Part shown: piece after piece, positions 26,525 to 48,021 of the stretch
Numbering within the stretch: the stretch's first letter is position 1
Layout: every line of letters starts with the position of its first letter
Assembly (NCBI GenBank): GCA_035498015.1
Contig: DATKAO010000085.1
Span: 1 to 57,862 of the forward strand
DNA: 57,862 bases
Reading direction: 5' to 3'
Source of the DNA: Myxococcota bacterium
GTDB lineage: Bacteria > Myxococcota_A > UBA9160 > SZUA-336
Position numbers and translations under genes: made by a program
Notes under the pieces: generated by a model
What the model saw: the letters and a program-made list of their open reading frames with translations, nothing else
Told to the model about the DNA's origin: nothing
Database searches by the model: none

Positions 26525-29500
26525 CTACAGATTGCAGCCCGACGTGAGCGCCGGCCCCAGGCTGGCGAGCGCGCGCCGCAGCACCGTGACGTCCACGATG
26601 TCGCAGCTGGCCGCGCCCGAGCCGTTGGGCCCTGCCACGTTGCACTTGCCCGGCGCCAGCGGCGTCGAGATCGAGGCCAAAAGCTCGCGCGCGGCCCGCA
26701 CGTCCGCGCTGGCCGCGATGCCGTCCGCAGTCACGTCGCCGCACTGATTCGCGTCGCGGATCCCGTCCGGCTGCGACGAGTCGCCCACGCCGCCGCGGTC
26801 GATGCCCATGCGCGGGCCCGAGCCCGGCGGCGTGCAGGTGAAGGTGAGCTCGGTCGGCACCGAGCCGACCAGGTTCTTGAGCTGGGTGCTGGTCAGCGTG
26901 GGGTCGGTCGAGGAGTCGGGCGTGTAGGTGTTGGCAGCCGACATCCACCAGCCGCGAGTCACTCCGTTGATCGTGGCCTTCACGACCAGATCGCACTCCT
27001 TGTTCGGCGTGCGGTCGACGTCGGGGTAGTCGGTGACCGCGCGCGTCTCGAGCAGGGAGACCCGGTTGAACACGTTGGGATCGCTGATGTTGGCCGAGGT
27101 GAACGTGACTTGCTGGCCGACGATGGGCGCCAGGTCGCTCGGGAAGGCCATCACGAAGTTCGCCACGTTCTGGCGCATCGCGGCGCCCTTGTTCTTGTAG
27201 TTGCTGTTCGGGTCGTTGGTGGTGTCGGCCGGGAACGAGAACACGCTGCCGTTCAGGAAGCTCACCACGTTGTCGACCGAGCCGTCGTTCAGGTAGCCGA
27301 AGCCGCGGATCTGAATGTCGTTGGGGTCGCCGTGCAGCGGGATCCCGGGCTTGTTGGGGTCGGTGATGAGGTTGACTCCGTCCATGCCGTACATGCCGAC
27401 CTTCTGATAGGCGTTGCGCAGGTGCGGCACCTTGAAGTGCTGACTCAGTCCTTCGAAGGTCGAGAGACCGCCCGTGCCGAAGAAGCCCTGCGACGGGTCG
27501 AGCGTGTGACAGCCGTTGCAGTTCTTCAGCGTGTCCGACGGCGCGCCCGCGTAGAAGCCGGCGCCGGCCGCGGCCGACGCGCTCACCGAGAGGTCGAAGC
27601 CGCGGATCGGGTTCGGCGGGAGCTGCACCTTCAGGATGAAATTCGTGTACGCGAGCATGTCCGAGGCGCTGAGCTGACTCGCGCGCCCGAGCAGACTCAC
27701 GAACGCGGGATTGAATTTCTGGAAGGCCTGCGTCTCGTCGAGCGCGTTCGCGGGATCGCCGTCCCAGTTCGGCTGGCGGTCGCTGCTGACCCCGCCCGAT
27801 CGGTCGCCGCGCCAGTGCATCGGCCCGCTGTGCTCCATGCCGCGCAGGGTCTGCGTGGTCATGGGGCCTTTCAGCGGGTGGAAGTCCACGTTGCCGCCCA
27901 GGTTCGCGATCGCCACGGGCAGCGGCGGGGCCAGGCCCGAGCGCACGAACGGGTTGTTGTTGGTGAGCACGCCGTTGGGATCGGGCAGGCCCAGATCCCA
28001 GGCCAGTGAGTCGAAGTCGGAGAACACGTGGCACACCGCGCACGAGGCCTCGCCGTTGGCCGAGGTCAGGTGCGTGTCGTACAGGAAGCGCCGGCCGTTC
28101 ACGATCGTGGCGCTCTCGGGGTTGTGCACCGTGACGTGACCGATCTCGGTCTTCGCCGTCGGGTCCACGATCGAGATGCCGTCGTCGAAGCGCGTGTACA
28201 CGTAGAGGCGGTTGCGGCCCTCGTCGAGCACCAGCCCGCCCGGACCGCCCGCGCTGAGCGGAATGTGATTCGCGGCGTTGGGCGTGAACGCGCCGGGATC
28301 CGAGGGCGGCAGCGCGAGCGCCACGGTGTCGATCACGCCGACCTCCTGGGAGCCGAACGCGGCCAGATACAGCGTGGCGCCGTTCTGAGTCACGGCCATG
28401 TCGGTCGGGATCCCGAGGCTCTTCTGATTCATGCTGGCCGGCACGGACACCGGGGCGAGCGTGTAGTCGATGTGCTTGTTCAGGTGGCGGGTCGCTACGG
28501 TCGAGCTGCCGGACAGGATCGAGATGCGCGCCTTGTGCAGCTCGCCGCGCAGGTTCGGCTCGGGCGGGGTGGTGTTCGGGTCCGCGCCACCCTCGAAGCG
28601 GTCGAAGTTGTTCGCGTCGGTGTTCGAGACGTACACGACGCCCGAGATCGGATTGACCGCCATGTTGTAGAGGATCGTGCCCACGTGATCGAAGACGCCC
28701 GTCTGCACCGGCGGCGTCGCGTTTGCGTCGAGCACGAACACGTCGTGGTCGGGCAGCGTGAACTTCACCAGATTGGTGTGAGTCGCGCCGTTGACGTCGA
28801 CCCAGGTGGTGTCCGACTGGTACTTCAGCATCACGCCGACCTGGGGCGCAGGCAGCGTGCCGCCGGCCGGGTTCACGTAGTCCGGGGTCGGTGCCGGGGT
28901 CGGAATGGCGCCCTGCAGGGCGACCGTGGTCTGGTCGCCCGAGTGGAACACCGCGGCGTAGACCGTGCCGCCGTCGGGAGTCACCGCCAGCGCGCGCGGT
29001 GTGTCGCCGAACAGGTTCAAGAGCGCGATCGGGGTACCGCCCAGGTTGGCGCCGAGGCTGTTCGCGTCGAACACCCACACGTCGCTGCGGCCCACGCCGC
29101 CCTCGAGCAGCTGCGGGTCGCCCGGGCGGTTCTGGCCGCGGTGCGCGGCGGTGATGAAGGCGCGGTCGTGCGCCGTGCCACCGAACACGATGTCGCGCGG
29201 CTCGTCACCGACCAAAAGCGTGCGAGTCACCTTCAGGTTCGGAACGTCGACGATCGAGATGCTGTCCGAGAGGTGATTCACCACCCAGACTTCCGTGTTC
29301 GAGCGCGCGGCCACCGCGACGGGCTCGAGACCCACGGGCACGGATCCGATCAGCCGGAGACCGCTCGCGCCGACTTGGAAGACCTCGAGCCGGCCGTCCG
29401 GGATGTTGCAGGCGAAGAGCTTGGTCTTGTCGGGCGACAGCGCGAGGGGCCGCACGGGGCCGCTCTCGAACAGCGTGTAGTTGTCCTGGGCCGATGCGAG

Positions 29501-29563
29501 GCCCGGCAAGCCACACAGCAGGGTCCACAGCAGGACAGAGCTACACCAGCGCCAGCGTCCCAT
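26525..29563 (-). CDS. Exported beta-propeller / di-heme cytochrome c / dockerin-like protein, copy 1
   Basis: 1012 residues. Signal peptide about 1-25 (MGRWRWCSSVLLWTLLCGL...ASA). Residues about 30-480 are a YVTN-type beta-propeller with repeated VxxLSPDxxxLFxxN and SIVDV blades. Two haem sites follow, CAVCH near residue 508 and CNGCH near residue 683, with the VPHLRNAYQKVGMYG segment typical of MauG/cytochrome c peroxidase-like proteins. The last 70 residues (CGDVTADGIAASADVRAARELL and CDIVDVTVLRRAL) resemble paired dockerin calcium loops. I chose ATG 29563 because GGAGGGG lies just before it. Probably a periplasmic or surface oxidase or electron-transfer protein; substrate unknown. Confidence 0.87.
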   Translation of the reverse strand: MGRWRWCSSVLLWTLLCGLPGLASAQDNYTLFESGPVRPLALSPDKTKLFACNIPDGRLEVFQVGASGLRLIGSVPVGLEPVAVAARSNTEVWVVNHLSDSISIVDVPNLKVTRTLLVGDEPRDIVFGGTAHDRAFITAAHRGQNRPGDPQLLEGGVGRSDVWVFDANSLGANLGGTPIALLNLFGDTPRALAVTPDGGTVYAAVFHSGDQTTVALQGAIPTPAPTPDYVNPAGGTLPAPQVGVMLKYQSDTTWVDVNGATHTNLVKFTLPDHDVFVLDANATPPVQTGVFDHVGTILYNMAVNPISGVVYVSNTDANNFDRFEGGADPNTTPPEPNLRGELHKARISILSGSSTVATRHLNKHIDYTLAPVSVPASMNQKSLGIPTDMAVTQNGATLYLAAFGSQEVGVIDTVALALPPSDPGAFTPNAANHIPLSAGGPGGLVLDEGRNRLYVYTRFDDGISIVDPTAKTEIGHVTVHNPESATIVNGRRFLYDTHLTSANGEASCAVCHVFSDFDSLAWDLGLPDPNGVLTNNNPFVRSGLAPPLPVAIANLGGNVDFHPLKGPMTTQTLRGMEHSGPMHWRGDRSGGVSSDRQPNWDGDPANALDETQAFQKFNPAFVSLLGRASQLSASDMLAYTNFILKVQLPPNPIRGFDLSVSASAAAGAGFYAGAPSDTLKNCNGCHTLDPSQGFFGTGGLSTFEGLSQHFKVPHLRNAYQKVGMYGMDGVNLITDPNKPGIPLHGDPNDIQIRGFGYLNDGSVDNVVSFLNGSVFSFPADTTNDPNSNYKNKGAAMRQNVANFVMAFPSDLAPIVGQQVTFTSANISDPNVFNRVSLLETRAVTDYPDVDRTPNKECDLVVKATINGVTRGWWMSAANTYTPDSSTDPTLTSTQLKNLVGSVPTELTFTCTPPGSGPRMGIDRGGVGDSSQPDGIRDANQCGDVTADGIAASADVRAARELLASISTPLAPGKCNVAGPNGSGAASCDIVDVTVLRRALASLGPALTSGCNL

Positions 29564-29671
29564 GATCCCCTCCAACGCGCCTCTGCCGCGGCAGCGGTCG
29601 ATGCAAACCGCGGCATGATACGACGATCCACTGACCGGAGGGGAGGGAAAAGCCGAGTCCGCGCGGCCGGA

Positions 29672-32650
29672 TCAGTTCGCGCAGCCGTTCGTCGTAGCGG
29701 GCGAAAGGCCAGCGAGAGCGCGCTTCAGGACGGCCACGTCGAGGATGTCGCAGCTCGCCGGGTCGCTGCCCGGGTCGCCCGCAACGTTGCACTTGCCGGG
29801 CGCGGTGGGGCTCGAGATTCCGGCCAGGAGGGCGCGCGTCTGGGCCAGGTCGCCCGAGGTCGCCACGCCATCTGCGTCGGTGTCTCCGCACTGCTGCTGG
29901 TCGAGGATGCCGTCGGGCGGTGAGTCGTCGCCGACCCCGCCACGGTCGATGCCCAGGCGCGCGCCGGAGCCGGGCGGCGCGCAGGTGTAGGTCAGGTCCT
30001 GCCCGGGGGTGGCTGCGAGCGCGCGCAGGTCGGCGTCGGCGATCGGGCCCTCGCTGCTGGAGTCCGAGGTGAAGACGCCCGGCGAGCTCATCCACCAGCC
30101 GCGCGCCACACCCGCGATCCGGCCCTTCACCACCAGGTCGCACTCGTTGTTCGGGGTGCGGTCCGCGTTCGGGTAGGCCGTGCTGGCGCGCTGCACCAGC
30201 AGGTCGAGGCGCGCGATCAGGTCGGGATCCGTGCCGTTGTCGCTGCGCAGAGTGACCTGCTGGCCGACGATCGGCGCGAGGTCGGACGGGAACGCGAACA
30301 GGAAGCTGGCGAGGTTCGCGCGCGTGGTGTCTCCCGCGGGGCCGCCGAGCGGGCTGAAGAACGTGCCCTGCAGGAAGCTCACGATCGTGTCCGAGGAGCC
30401 GTCGTTCAGGAAGCCGAAGCCACGCACCTGGTCGCTCGTGGGCGAGCCGTGGCCCGGGAACGAGCCGATCGGGTTGCGCCCGAACATACCGACCTTCTGA
30501 TACTCGTTGCGCAGGTGCGGCACCTTGAAGTGCTGTGACTCGGCGGAGAAGCTGGTGAGTCCGCTCGTGCCGAAGTGACCGTGCGCGGGGTCGAGCACGT
30601 GACAGCCCACGCAGTTCTTGCTGGCGCCGTCGCTGGCCGCGCCCAGGAAGGTGGCCAGGCCCGCGGACTGCGCCGCGGTGAACGAGCCGTCGAAGTTGCG
30701 GATCGGGTTCGGCGGCAGCTGGAGCTGCAGCGCGAAGCTCGCGAACGCCTGCATGTCGCCGGCCGACAGCTGGCCGTCGCGGCCCAGCAGGCTCACGAAC
30801 GCGCCGTTGAACTTGAGGAACGCCTGGTTCGGGTCGTTGGCGTTGGGATCGGCGTCCCAGTTCGGCGTGCGGCTGCTGAAGCCGCCGCCCGAGCGGTCGC
30901 CGCGCCAGTGCATCGGCCCGTTGTGCACCATGCCGCGCAGGGTCTGCGTGGTCATCGGCCCCTTGAGCGGGTGGAAATCGACGTTGGTGACTCCGCTGCC
31001 GTCGACCACGGCCGGGCCGGTCGTGCCCACGATCTTCACGAACGGGTTGTCGTTCAGGGCCACCGCGCCATCGGGCGACGGAGCGCCCAGGTCCCAGGCC
31101 AGCGAGTCGAAGTCGGCGAACACGTGACACGAGCCGCACGAGGCCTCGCCGTTCGAGGACGAGAGGTGCGTGTCGTACAGGAAGCGCCGGCCGGTCGTGA
31201 CCGACGCGGGCTCCGGGTTGTGCACGCGCACGTGGCCGACCTCGCTCTTCGAGTCGGTCGAGACCAGGGAGATTCCGTCGTCGAAGCGCGTGTACACGTA
31301 GAGCCGGCTGCGCGGCTCGTCGAGCACGACGCCGCCCGGCCCGCCCGCCGAGAGCGCGATGTGACTCGCGGCGCTGGGCTGGAACGCGTTGGGATCGTTC
31401 GGGTCGAGCTCGAGCGCCGCGGTGTCGATCACGCCCAGCTCCTGGGAGCCGAACGCGGCCACGTAGAGCGTGGCGCCGTCGGAGGTCACTGCCATGTCGG
31501 TCGGGATCCCGAGGCTCTTCTGATTCATGCTGGCCGGCACGGACACCGGGGCGAGCGTGTAGTCGATGTGCTTGTTCAGGTGGCGGGTTGCCACGGTCGA
31601 GGTGCCGGAGAGGATCGAGATGCGCGCCTTGTGCAGCTCACCGCGCAGGTTCGGCTCGGGCGCAGCGACGTTCGGGTCCGCGCCGCCCTCGAAGCGGTCC
31701 ATGTTGTTGGCGTCGGTGTTGGTCACGTAGACGGAGCCGGACATGGGATTCACCGCCATGTTGAACAGGATCGTGCCCACGTGGTCGTAGACCGAGGTCT
31801 GCGCCGGCGGCGTCGCGTTCGCGTCGAGCGCGAACACGTCGTGGTCGGGCAGCGAGAACGGGACCAGGTTGTCCCAGTTCACGCCGGTGGCGTCCTGCCA
31901 GGTCACGGGACCCACCTGGCGCATCATCAGCCCGACCGCCGGCGTGGGCAGGCTGTTCGGGTCCGAGACGCCGGTGGGCAGGCTCTGGAAGGGGCCGATC
32001 TGCGGAATGGTGCCGACGGGCAGCGTGGTGGTCTGGTCGCCGGAGTGGAACACCGCGGCGTAGACGGTCGCGCCGTTGGGAGTCACTGCCAGCGCGCGCG
32101 GAGTGTCTCCGAACAGGCTCAAGATCGCGAGCGGCGTGCCACCCAGCGCCGCGCCCAGGTTGTTCGCGTCGAACACCCACACGTCGCTGCGGCCCACGCC
32201 GCCGTCGAGCAGCTGCGGGTCACCCGGCCGGTTCTGCCCGCGGTGCGCGGCGGTGACGAACGCCCGGTCGTGCGCCGCGCCCGCGAACACGAGGTCGCGC
32301 GGCTCGTCGCCCACCAGCAGGGTGCGAGTCACTCGCTGGGTCGCGACGTCGACGATCGAGATGCTGTCGGAGAGGTGATTGACGACCCACACCTCGCCGT
32401 TCGTGCGGGCCGCGACCGCGACCGGCTCGAGCCCGACCGGAACCGACCCCGAGTGCAGAAGCCCCGCTGCGCTCAGCGAGAAGATCTCGAGCCGCCCGTC
32501 GGGGATGTTGCAGGCGAAGAGCGTCGTGCCGTCGGGCGAGAGCGCGAGCGGGCGCACGGGTCCGCTCTCGAACAGCGTGTAGCTGCCCTGTGCCGCGGCG
32601 TTCGCTGCGTACAGCCAGCACAACAGCGCAAGTGCAAGCACCCGACCCAA
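29672..32650 (-). CDS. Exported beta-propeller / di-heme cytochrome c / dockerin-like protein, copy 2
   Basis: 992 residues, the same architecture as the gene downstream and very similar along its length: signal peptide (MGRVLALALLCWLYAANAAA), propeller, haem sites CGSCH near residue 503 and CVGCH near residue 678, NPIRNFD and VPHLRNEYQKVGMFG, and a dockerin-like tail (CGDTDADGVATSGDLAQTRALL). Long stretches such as SVPASMNQKSLGIPTDMAV are identical in both copies. The TTG at 32650 is preferred: GGAGG lies eight bases upstream and it gives the same signal-peptide length as the paralog. An ATG at 32731 is possible. Spacing of 108 bases suggests a common transcript. Confidence 0.86.
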   Translation of the reverse strand: MGRVLALALLCWLYAANAAAQGSYTLFESGPVRPLALSPDGTTLFACNIPDGRLEIFSLSAAGLLHSGSVPVGLEPVAVAARTNGEVWVVNHLSDSISIVDVATQRVTRTLLVGDEPRDLVFAGAAHDRAFVTAAHRGQNRPGDPQLLDGGVGRSDVWVFDANNLGAALGGTPLAILSLFGDTPRALAVTPNGATVYAAVFHSGDQTTTLPVGTIPQIGPFQSLPTGVSDPNSLPTPAVGLMMRQVGPVTWQDATGVNWDNLVPFSLPDHDVFALDANATPPAQTSVYDHVGTILFNMAVNPMSGSVYVTNTDANNMDRFEGGADPNVAAPEPNLRGELHKARISILSGTSTVATRHLNKHIDYTLAPVSVPASMNQKSLGIPTDMAVTSDGATLYVAAFGSQELGVIDTAALELDPNDPNAFQPSAASHIALSAGGPGGVVLDEPRSRLYVYTRFDDGISLVSTDSKSEVGHVRVHNPEPASVTTGRRFLYDTHLSSSNGEASCGSCHVFADFDSLAWDLGAPSPDGAVALNDNPFVKIVGTTGPAVVDGSGVTNVDFHPLKGPMTTQTLRGMVHNGPMHWRGDRSGGGFSSRTPNWDADPNANDPNQAFLKFNGAFVSLLGRDGQLSAGDMQAFASFALQLQLPPNPIRNFDGSFTAAQSAGLATFLGAASDGASKNCVGCHVLDPAHGHFGTSGLTSFSAESQHFKVPHLRNEYQKVGMFGRNPIGSFPGHGSPTSDQVRGFGFLNDGSSDTIVSFLQGTFFSPLGGPAGDTTRANLASFLFAFPSDLAPIVGQQVTLRSDNGTDPDLIARLDLLVQRASTAYPNADRTPNNECDLVVKGRIAGVARGWWMSSPGVFTSDSSSEGPIADADLRALAATPGQDLTYTCAPPGSGARLGIDRGGVGDDSPPDGILDQQQCGDTDADGVATSGDLAQTRALLAGISSPTAPGKCNVAGDPGSDPASCDILDVAVLKRALAGLSPATTNGCAN

Positions 32651-44792: not shown

Positions 44793-44937
44793 GCCGAGCT
44801 TCGCCCGCGCTGGCGGTGCACCGGCCCGCTCGCCGCTTCACAAGTTACGCCCAAATTGGGCGGCAAATGGTCGGGTAAGCTGACTCGCGCTCACGGCGGT
44901 CGCCGTGAGAAGATTCGCGTCGCCCGTGGAGGCGAAC

Positions 44938-47900
44938 ATGGACGCGTCGCGAGGCGGCATCTCGTTCGGCCCGTTCCAGCTCGACCTGACCCGCGGCGAG
45001 CTGCTGCGCAACGGCGAGCTCGTGTCACTCGCACCCAAGCCGCTGGCGCTGCTCAGCTATCTCGCGGCGAACCGCGACCGCGCCGTGCCCAAGGCCGAGC
45101 TGCGCAAGCAAGTGTGGCCGGGCGTGTTCGTGAGCGAGGCGGCGCTCGCCAGCGCCCTCAAGGACTTGCGGCGCGCGCTCGGCGACGACGGCGCGCGCCA
45201 GGGCGTGATCCGTACGCTGCGCCGCCGCGGCTATCGCTTCGTGGCCCGCCTGCGCGAGGGCGCGCAGCCCGCGGGCCCCGCGCCGGCCGCGCCGAGCGAG
45301 CCGACTCCTCGGGCGGCGCCGCGCCCGCAGCTCGTGGCGCGCGGACGCGAGCTGCGCGCGCTCCTGAGCTGGCTCGCGCAGGCCGCCCGCGGCCGCCCGC
45401 GCATCGTGCTCCTGGTCGGTGAGTCGGGGTCAGGCAAGACGCGCCTGCTCGAAGAGCTGGCGGCGCATCCCGCCTGCTCGGGCTTCGCGGTCGGCATCGG
45501 CCACGGCCAGGCCGGCGCGCCGCTGCCCTATCTCGGGCTGGCCGAGGCGCTGGGCGCGCGGCTGTTCGCGGGCGGCGACAGCGCCGAGGACCTGCTCGCC
45601 GACGACGCGGCGATCCTGCGCCCGCTGCTGCAGCTCGACGCTCCGCCGCGGCCGGCCGGGGGGCCGGGCCTGGATCACGCGGAGCGCGACCGCGCGGATC
45701 TCTTCGCCGCAGTGACCGAGCTCGTGACTCGGCTCGCGCGCCGGCGTCCGACCCTGCTCGCAGTCGAGGACCTGCACGACGCGGACCCGGCGTCGCTCGA
45801 CCTGTTCGCCGCGCTGGCGGCCGGGCTGGGCGCGGCGCGCGCGCCGGTGCCGCTCTTGCTCGTCGCCACCACGCGGCCCGCGCAACCCGGCGAGAGACTC
45901 GGCGACGTGCTCCGGCGCATCGAGCCGCTGGCCATCTGTTCGACCTTGCGCGTGACGGGCCTGGGTGTCGGCGCGACGCGCCGCCTGCTCGGGGCGCTCG
46001 GGGTCGAGCGCAGCTCGCACGCCGAGCTGCGCGCGCTCCAAGCGGCCACCGATGGGAACCCCTTGTTCATCCGCGAGCTCGCGCGCAGCGGCCGGGGTCG
46101 GATCTCGGCGACTGACTCGCGCGGCGCGGGCGACCTGCGCAGCCTGGAGGCGGCGCGCGTCGCGGCGCTGCCGGACGGCTGCCGGCGCGCGCTCGCCGCC
46201 GCGGCTTGTCTCGGCGAGCGCTTCGGACTGCTCGCGCTCTCGGCACTGTGCGGCGCCGATTCGGAGACGGTGCGCCGCGAGCTCGAGCCGGCGCTGCGCG
46301 CGGGCCTCGTGACCGGCGCGGAGCGCAGCTTCCGCTTCGACCACCCGCTGGTCCGCGAGGTCGTGCGCGACGCTACGCCGGAGCCGCTGGCCCGCGAGCT
46401 GCACCGCGGCGCGGCGGCGCTGCTCGAGGACCTGTACGCGAGCGCGCCGGGCGAGCACGCGCTCGAGATCGCCCACCACCTGCTGCGCGGGGGGAGCGAG
46501 ATCGAGCCCGGCCGGCTGCGCGCCTTTGCACGGCGCGCCGGTGACCAGGCGGCTGCGCTGTGCGCCTGGCGCGAGGCCGCCCGCTTCCACGCCGCCGCCG
46601 CGGCGGCCGCGGGAGCGCTCCCGCTCGGCGAGCGCGCCGGGCTCGAGCTGCGCGCCGGTCTCTCGGCGAATCACGACCTCGACGTGGAGTCGGCGCTCGA
46701 GCACTACGGGCGGGCCGCCGACGCGTTCGCCGAAGCCGGAGACGACGCTGGCCTGGCCTGGGCGCTGCTGGCGGCGGCGCGTGCGCGCTCCGCCTTCCCG
46801 GCCGCGGCGTCGCCGGGCGGCGTCGACGTGCGGCCGCTCGAAGACCTGGCGGCGCGCTTTGGCGAGTCACATCCCGGCCTGCGGGCGCGCATCCACGCCG
46901 CAGTCTCCGAGGCGCACTGGGTCGCCGGTGAGCTCGAGGCGGCGCTCGCCAGCGCGGAGCGCGCGGTGGCCATCGCGCGGGGGCAGGACGACGACGCCCT
47001 GAGTCACGAGACACTCATGGGCCTGGGCATGGCCCAGCTCTCGCTCCTGCGCGTGCGCGAGGCGCTCGAGAGCTGGCTGGAAGCCGCGGCGCGCGCGCGA
47101 CGCACGCGCGATCCGTGGCTCGAAGCGACGCCGGGCGGGCGCGTCGCGCTCGCGCTGCTCCTGCTGGGCCGGCTGCCCGAAGCGCGCGAGCGCGCGCGCT
47201 CGGCGATCGAGCTCGCGCGCGCCGCGCGCCACGGCGCCGAGCTGGGCCTGGCGCACGCGCAGCTCGCCGCGCTCGAAGCGGCCTCGGGCGCCTTCGCCGA
47301 GGCCGAGAGTCACGCAGCGAAGAGTCTCTCGGCGCTCGACCGTCAGGGCGTGCCGTGGGCCGGGCTGTTCGCACACAGCGCGCGCGCCGCCGCCGCGGCC
47401 GCGCGCGGCGCCTTCGCCGAGGCGAACGCCGCCCTGGACGAGCTCGTGACTCCGGGCCGCGCCTTCGAGAAGCCCGGGCCGGCCGTGCAGCTCGTGACCG
47501 CGGCCTACCGCGAGCTCGTCGCGGCGCGCCGCGACGGCGCGAGCGCCGACCCCCGGCGTGCGGCGCGCCTGGTCGGGGCGCTGCGCGGCGTCCGGCTCGA
47601 TCCCTATCAGCTCGGCGCCGTGTGCGCGCTCGCCGAGGTCAGTGACTCGCTGCGCGACCGGGCGCTGGCGGCGGTGCCCGAGGAGCTGCTGCGCGCCGCG
47701 GCGGCGGCGGGCATCGCGTTCACGCCCGGCTGGCCGTTCTCGGTCGAGCGCGCGCTCGGCTGCTGCGCGCGGCTGGCCGAGCGCTGGGACGAAGCCGGCC
47801 GCTGGCTCGACGACGCCGTGGCGCGCGCGCGCGACTCCGGCGCGCGCGTGGCGCTCGCGGAGGCATTGGTCGACCGCGCGCGCCTGTCGCTCGAGCGTGC

Positions 47901-48021
47901 CGACGCCCGGCGCGCCGCGCGCGACCTGGACGAGGCGCTGCCCCTGCTGGAGGCGCTCGCCATGCGGCCCGCGCTGCGCGACGCGCTCGCGCTCAGCCGC
48001 TCCGTGCGGCGCCCGAGCTGA
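44938..48021 (+). CDS. Winged-helix / ATPase / TPR regulator (CadC-like N-terminus)
   Basis: 1027 residues. N-terminal OmpR/CadC-type DNA-binding winged helix (about 5-105) with SLAPKPLALLSYLAANRDR and IRTLRRRGYRFV. Next an AAA-type ATPase (about 130-450) with Walker A GESGSGKTRLLEEL near residue 161 and Walker B LLAVEDLHDAD near residue 273. The rest (about 480-1020) is helical, with TPR-like repeats rich in alanine and arginine. ATG 44938 follows GGAGG by five bases. Such proteins act as signal-integrating transcription activators. No membrane helix is seen. Target genes unknown. Confidence 0.87.
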   Translation: MDASRGGISFGPFQLDLTRGELLRNGELVSLAPKPLALLSYLAANRDRAVPKAELRKQVWPGVFVSEAALASALKDLRRALGDDGARQGVIRTLRRRGYRFVARLREGAQPAGPAPAAPSEPTPRAAPRPQLVARGRELRALLSWLAQAARGRPRIVLLVGESGSGKTRLLEELAAHPACSGFAVGIGHGQAGAPLPYLGLAEALGARLFAGGDSAEDLLADDAAILRPLLQLDAPPRPAGGPGLDHAERDRADLFAAVTELVTRLARRRPTLLAVEDLHDADPASLDLFAALAAGLGAARAPVPLLLVATTRPAQPGERLGDVLRRIEPLAICSTLRVTGLGVGATRRLLGALGVERSSHAELRALQAATDGNPLFIRELARSGRGRISATDSRGAGDLRSLEAARVAALPDGCRRALAAAACLGERFGLLALSALCGADSETVRRELEPALRAGLVTGAERSFRFDHPLVREVVRDATPEPLARELHRGAAALLEDLYASAPGEHALEIAHHLLRGGSEIEPGRLRAFARRAGDQAAALCAWREAARFHAAAAAAAGALPLGERAGLELRAGLSANHDLDVESALEHYGRAADAFAEAGDDAGLAWALLAAARARSAFPAAASPGGVDVRPLEDLAARFGESHPGLRARIHAAVSEAHWVAGELEAALASAERAVAIARGQDDDALSHETLMGLGMAQLSLLRVREALESWLEAAARARRTRDPWLEATPGGRVALALLLLGRLPEARERARSAIELARAARHGAELGLAHAQLAALEAASGAFAEAESHAAKSLSALDRQGVPWAGLFAHSARAAAAAARGAFAEANAALDELVTPGRAFEKPGPAVQLVTAAYRELVAARRDGASADPRRAARLVGALRGVRLDPYQLGAVCALAEVSDSLRDRALAAVPEELLRAAAAAGIAFTPGWPFSVERALGCCARLAERWDEAGRWLDDAVARARDSGARVALAEALVDRARLSLERADARRAARDLDEALPLLEALAMRPALRDALALSRSVRRPS

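Follow-up and report, generated by a model that had tools for sequence, protein, structure and literature searches.

Tandem propeller-dihaem proteins with an exchangeable C-terminus and a dockerin-like tail in a Myxococcota bacterium

P1 and P2 are tandemly encoded proteins of a Myxococcota bacterium in which a propeller-dihaem core is followed by a dockerin-like tail, and the unusual part of both proteins is the tail, not the core. We favor the reading, at a probability of about 0.55, that they are secreted oxidoreductases resembling MauG and the gamma subunit of hydrazine synthase (HZS), which the tail holds at the surface or in the matrix through a non-cohesin partner. They are lineage-specific paralogues within a widespread family of exported oxidoreductases. 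At the level of sequence, alignments with relatives show that the C-terminus after the motif PPGSG is an exchangeable module.

The window, meaning the whole stretch of DNA analyzed (57,862 nucleotides; contig DATKAO010000085.1 of assembly GCA_035498015.1), has a GC content of 71% and comes from a genome of 4.5 Mb that is 95% complete. P1 (26525..29563; 1012 aa plus stop) and its upstream paralogue P2 (29672..32728; 1018 aa plus stop) are intact open reading frames on the minus strand, as are all of their features given below, and the gap between them is 108 bases. The exact start of P2 is uncertain, and translation may in fact begin downstream of 32728. Third codon positions are 93% GC in both frames, which fits coding sequence in a window of this composition. 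Both proteins contain a hydrophobic N-terminal signal; the signal peptide of P1 (approximately residues 1-26; 29486..29563) was read by eye from the hydrophobic N-terminus and ends in ASAQ. These lengths and signals agree with the original prediction of exported polypeptides of about 1000 residues, and its domain reading, which comprised a YVTN-type propeller, a MauG-like dihaem domain, and a dockerin-like tail, holds for both proteins.

The propeller of P1 spans approximately residues 30-482 (28118..29476), and the propeller of P2 (31214..32578) is 78% identical to it. Both match Pfam Lactonase (E ~1e-5) and the NCBIfam repeat model beta_rpt_yvtn (~1e-11), and a partial match to NCBIfam hydrazine_beta (5e-12) lies far below that model's cut-off. 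AlphaFold models most of residues 33-480 of P1 with confidence, and a Foldseek search of the PDB with this model ranks the HZS beta subunit first (5c2v_B; TM-score 0.74 by target, E 1.4e-16); the propeller assignment also draws on 1l0q. At the other end of the core is a beta/alpha cap (approximately residues 816-925 of P1; 26789..27118), which is modeled with a pLDDT of ~75-89 over most of its length. The cap is part of the conserved core and ends at a conserved PPGSG-R.

Between the propeller and the cap lies the dihaem domain (approximately residues 483-815 of P1; 27119..28117), which profile matches place in the CCP/MauG superfamily, closest to the gamma subunit of HZS. For a profile of this part, built from 48 relatives, the strongest match is HZS gamma (1e-7), ahead of BthA (6e-4); cytochrome c peroxidase follows with a weak match (0.04). 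The Pfam family CCP_MauG (PF03150) is matched by 38 of the 48 members at E<=0.01, with a best value of 8e-6, and P1 itself scores below the Pfam cut-off. The AlphaFold model of the P1 dihaem region is poor and of low confidence, and the haem ligands are not visible in it.

The domain contains two CxxCH motifs. The haem 1 motif is CAVCH in P1 (residues 508-512; 28028..28042) and CGSCH in P2 (residues 531-535; 31124..31138), while the haem 2 motif is CNGCH in P1 (residues 682-686; 27506..27520) and CVGCH in P2 (residues 706-710; 30599..30613). Across 103 aligned sequences, the two cysteines and the histidine of each motif are invariant (C508, C511, H512, C682, C685, and H686 in P1), as are W522, H583, W584, R585, and D587, and M724 is nearly invariant. 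Four of these residues belong to the motif HWRGDR (residues 583-588 of P1; 27800..27817), in which H, W, R, and D are found in 103 of 103 rows. Apart from those of the haem motifs, H583 is the sole invariant histidine of the domain, and it is a candidate distal histidine. W584 is the best candidate for the tryptophan of CCP and MauG, a correspondence read from the alignment and not from superposition. Residue 759 of P1 and its P2 equivalent are Asn, and the same position is His, within an HDG motif, in 88 of the 103 rows, including the copy from the same genus.

HZS beta and gamma are the nearest solved relatives of the core, being its top Foldseek and profile matches. They are separate subunits that are fused in Ca. 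Scalindua, and together they present the same order, first a propeller and then a two-haem domain of the CCP/MauG type. Fused beta-gamma HZS homologues were reported in 2025 to be highly prevalent in environmental bacteria and to lack conservation of the key HZS residues; those of clades I-III have, like CCP and MauG, a Trp in place of gamma-His144 (PMC12758564). The core resembles these fused relatives, which bear on the origin of HZS. A role for the core as an HZS beta-gamma equivalent in nitrogen chemistry, which would fit its best solved matches, is nevertheless very improbable. The HZS alpha subunit (PF18582) has no match in the source genome and none in eight of the nine relatives tested. 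P1, P2, and 85 of the 103 rows in all have no Cys between the two haem motifs and thus no equivalent of gamma-Cys165, which forms a third haem bond. An invariant Trp also takes the place of gamma-His144 (the exact alignment is inferred), as in the published homologues. HZS activity was rejected on the missing alpha subunit and the missing Cys165 equivalent. P1 and P2 further differ from HZS in their extra cap, their variable tail, and their phylum. Separately, a Kofleriaceae-type genome (G086; C31:305-4963) contains HZS_alpha domain matches, one of them above the Pfam cut-off.

The bacterial dihaem peroxidases and MauG, BthA, and MbnH share with the core the two CxxCH motifs, FKVP-LRN and HDG-type motifs, and the candidate Trp. 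Unlike them, the core carries large insertions and an N-terminal propeller, matches them weakly in sequence, and in P1 and P2 has N for the common H of HDG. Two c-type haems, with the near-invariant Met724 as a possible ligand of haem 2, would also suit a surface cytochrome that serves solely as an electron shuttle and has no catalytic haem. This is improbable, however, as the invariant HWRGDR and the kinship with CCP and MauG fit a catalytic dihaem enzyme, and two haems by themselves would be a poor conduit for electrons. As MauG/HZS-gamma-like oxidoreductases, P1 and P2 would have their reaction site at haem 1, next to HWRGDR, and haem 2 would take or deliver electrons, both by analogy with the haem roles in HZS gamma (PMC12607021). 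Like HZS beta, the propeller would shape the approach to haem 1. The enzyme may use peroxide or oxygen to oxidize a small molecule or a protein side chain outside the cell, and it would do so without an HZS-alpha partner. The sequences single out no particular substrate, the hydrophobic compound of the original prediction included. The tail would keep the enzyme on the cell surface or within the matrix through calcium-stabilized binding to a partner other than a canonical cohesin.

The linker and dockerin-like tail occupy residues 926-1012 of P1 (26528..26788) and 29675..29935 in P2, and were assigned from a tail family of the same genome, together with the dockerin profile for P1 and the alignment for P2. 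The tail alignment contains four invariant cysteines and a canonical first calcium loop, so the paired calcium loops of the original prediction stand for the first loop; the second is remodeled with two cysteines. Disulphides may replace part of the calcium binding, judging from this pattern. Like type I dockerins, including non-cellulosomal ones, the tail has a first loop of the form D-x-x-x-D-G...D followed by a helix, a paired repeat layout, and a mostly C-terminal position on diverse enzymes. It differs from them in its four invariant cysteines, its remodeled second loop, and a source genome with no canonical cohesin. With a 26-member tail profile, ~25 dockerins of the PDB are matched, the best at E 2e-5. 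Single tails fall on either side of the Pfam dockerin cut-off; the P1 tail alone misses Dockerin_1 and, as a single sequence, finds no dockerin in the PDB. The model of the tail is of moderate confidence (pLDDT 71) and forms two loop-helix units with helices where expected, with no dockerin match in Foldseek.

The lack of any other protein with this tail, which the original prediction named as a refuting outcome, is clearly not what the searches show. The tail is shared by many exported proteins of the source genome, which contains 18 copies by a tail search at a loose cut-off, 18 by the 26-member profile, and 20 by a consensus search whose total includes some spacer-only places; carriers were counted by search. 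They include a carboxylesterase, FG-GAP proteins, an M23 peptidase, a subtilase, a CotH protein, glucose/sorbosone dehydrogenase-type proteins, and a Rax2-type propeller. Two glucose/sorbosone dehydrogenase-type propeller carriers also have CxxCH motifs (L041:1597-4242 and L042:2363-4975) and form another type of propeller-cytochrome fusion that bears this tail. A thrombospondin-type-3 spacer often precedes the tail. The position of the module was read in 18 cases, P1 and P2 counted, and is C-terminal in 14, N-terminal in two, and internal in two, which indicates a domain rather than a C-terminal signal that is cleaved off. Across the phylum, the module is present in 28 of 269 genomes, all but one of them in the class of the source genome, and most copies are found in its family and in one genome of another family. 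Genome G001, from another family of the same class, has 15 tail matches, many of them in open frames longer than 1600 codons. A search of the available literature returned nothing on the HWRGDR motif and nothing on a propeller, di-haem domain, and dockerin together.

Alignments of P1 to most relatives end near residues 924-950. After the core, by simple text patterns that make the classes approximate, relatives end in MYXO-CTERM-like, PEP-CTERM, or IPTL-like sequences, other calcium-loop pairs, long unrelated domains, or nothing, with no tail in ~39 of 102. MYXO-CTERM is well established as a tag for surface sorting; without it, TraA is released to the medium (PMC11980579). The dockerin-like tail takes the same C-terminal position as the MYXO-CTERM and PEP-CTERM tags, on the same core and in related genomes. 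In contrast to these tags, it can be N-terminal or internal, and the P1 and P2 tails lack the short motif, transmembrane helix, and basic end that define them, with neither a transmembrane segment nor an Arg cluster. Its position suggests that the tail serves surface retention. The N-terminal or internal module of some carriers is evidence against this, as a pure sorting tag would not be so placed. The exchange of C-termini on one core is a natural test of whether a dockerin-like domain can replace a sorting tag without a cohesin.

The MYXO-CTERM model finds nothing above its cut-off in the source genome, a weak negative because this short model matches control genomes weakly and misses clear MYXO-like ends in relatives. 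The tail was also considered as a substitute for a lost sorting system, and this was rejected since the source genome keeps two full-length exosortases. N0 domains of the type II secretin GspD are present in the source genome, and secretion of P1 and P2 by type II is possible.

The original prediction also proposed a cohesin-like partner, and the canonical form was not found: PF00963 has no match in the 95% complete source genome, nor in the four further genomes with the most tails (G089, G144, G154, and G001), a search that divergent cohesins would escape. Two further genomes of the class do have cohesin matches above the cut-off, and one of them (G182) has 8 tails. Together with the dockerin matches of the tail profile and the many different enzymes that carry the tail, these matches would fit a true dockerin whose partner is a highly diverged cohesin borne by a surface protein or scaffold, in a cellulosome-like extracellular assembly of redox enzymes and hydrolases. 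The empty PF00963 searches, the cysteines that remodel the second calcium loop, and the lack of a structural match for the tail make such an assembly quite unlikely. It is also rather unlikely that the tail is a passive end cap or spacer, stabilized by calcium and disulphides, with no specific partner. A short, cysteine-rich module that often follows thrombospondin-type-3 spacers, can be N-terminal or internal, and is dispensed with in many tailless relatives could be just that, but its strong conservation, its sharing by unrelated enzymes within one lineage, and the sorting tags that relatives put at the same position argue for a specific role. Retention by a non-cohesin partner remains our preferred reading for P1 and P2. 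A broader version, which we propose only tentatively, is that the four-cysteine module and the thrombospondin-type-3 spacer may form a lineage-specific surface-retention or assembly system with a non-cohesin receptor, used by ~18 exported proteins and interchangeable with MYXO-CTERM or PEP-CTERM on the same core.

P1 and P2 share 684 identical residues (~68%), and their cores are ~72% identical. In the tree they are sisters with a support of 1.0, and the same-genus copy (L047, genome G089) falls outside the pair. As judged from these sequences, the duplication is lineage-specific and old. It had been proposed to be recent, and the 72% core identity and the different codons used at 187 of the 684 identical residues contradict that proposal.

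The propeller-dihaem core is present in 57 of the 284 genomes sampled from the phylum and at at least 589 loci of the genome collection, in Myxococcota, Binatota, Acidobacteriota, and Gammaproteobacteria. The fusion of a propeller with a MauG-like domain is therefore not unusual, contrary to what was first supposed and in line with the reported abundance of fused homologues (PMC12758564). Eighty of these loci were kept, including Sorangium, Polyangium, Corallococcus, Myxococcus, Binatota, Acidobacteriota, and the gammaproteobacterial Methylobacter and Nevskia. The core defines a large, conserved, and apparently uncharacterized family of secreted dihaem enzymes, and its presence in culturable myxobacteria makes its chemistry directly testable. 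Comparison of neighborhoods across the 80 loci identified no gene conserved beside the core, and so the core enzyme probably acts alone.

A few genes recur near the core in smaller numbers of loci. A divergent MalT-like regulator of the LuxR family adjoins the core gene in four genomes from distant groups, those of Peristeroidobacter, two Corallococcus, and Methylibium (L161:2049-4931, L183, L184, and L185:1959-4910; Pfam was run on two of the four), an arrangement that suggests substrate-induced expression. In five loci (L114, L120, L146, L161, and L178; Pfam was run on two), the core gene has an Amidohydro_3-type gene in its vicinity. Within the window itself, a 1038-aa open reading frame at 44905-48021 contains Trans_reg_C and AAA_16 domains and encodes a large regulator.
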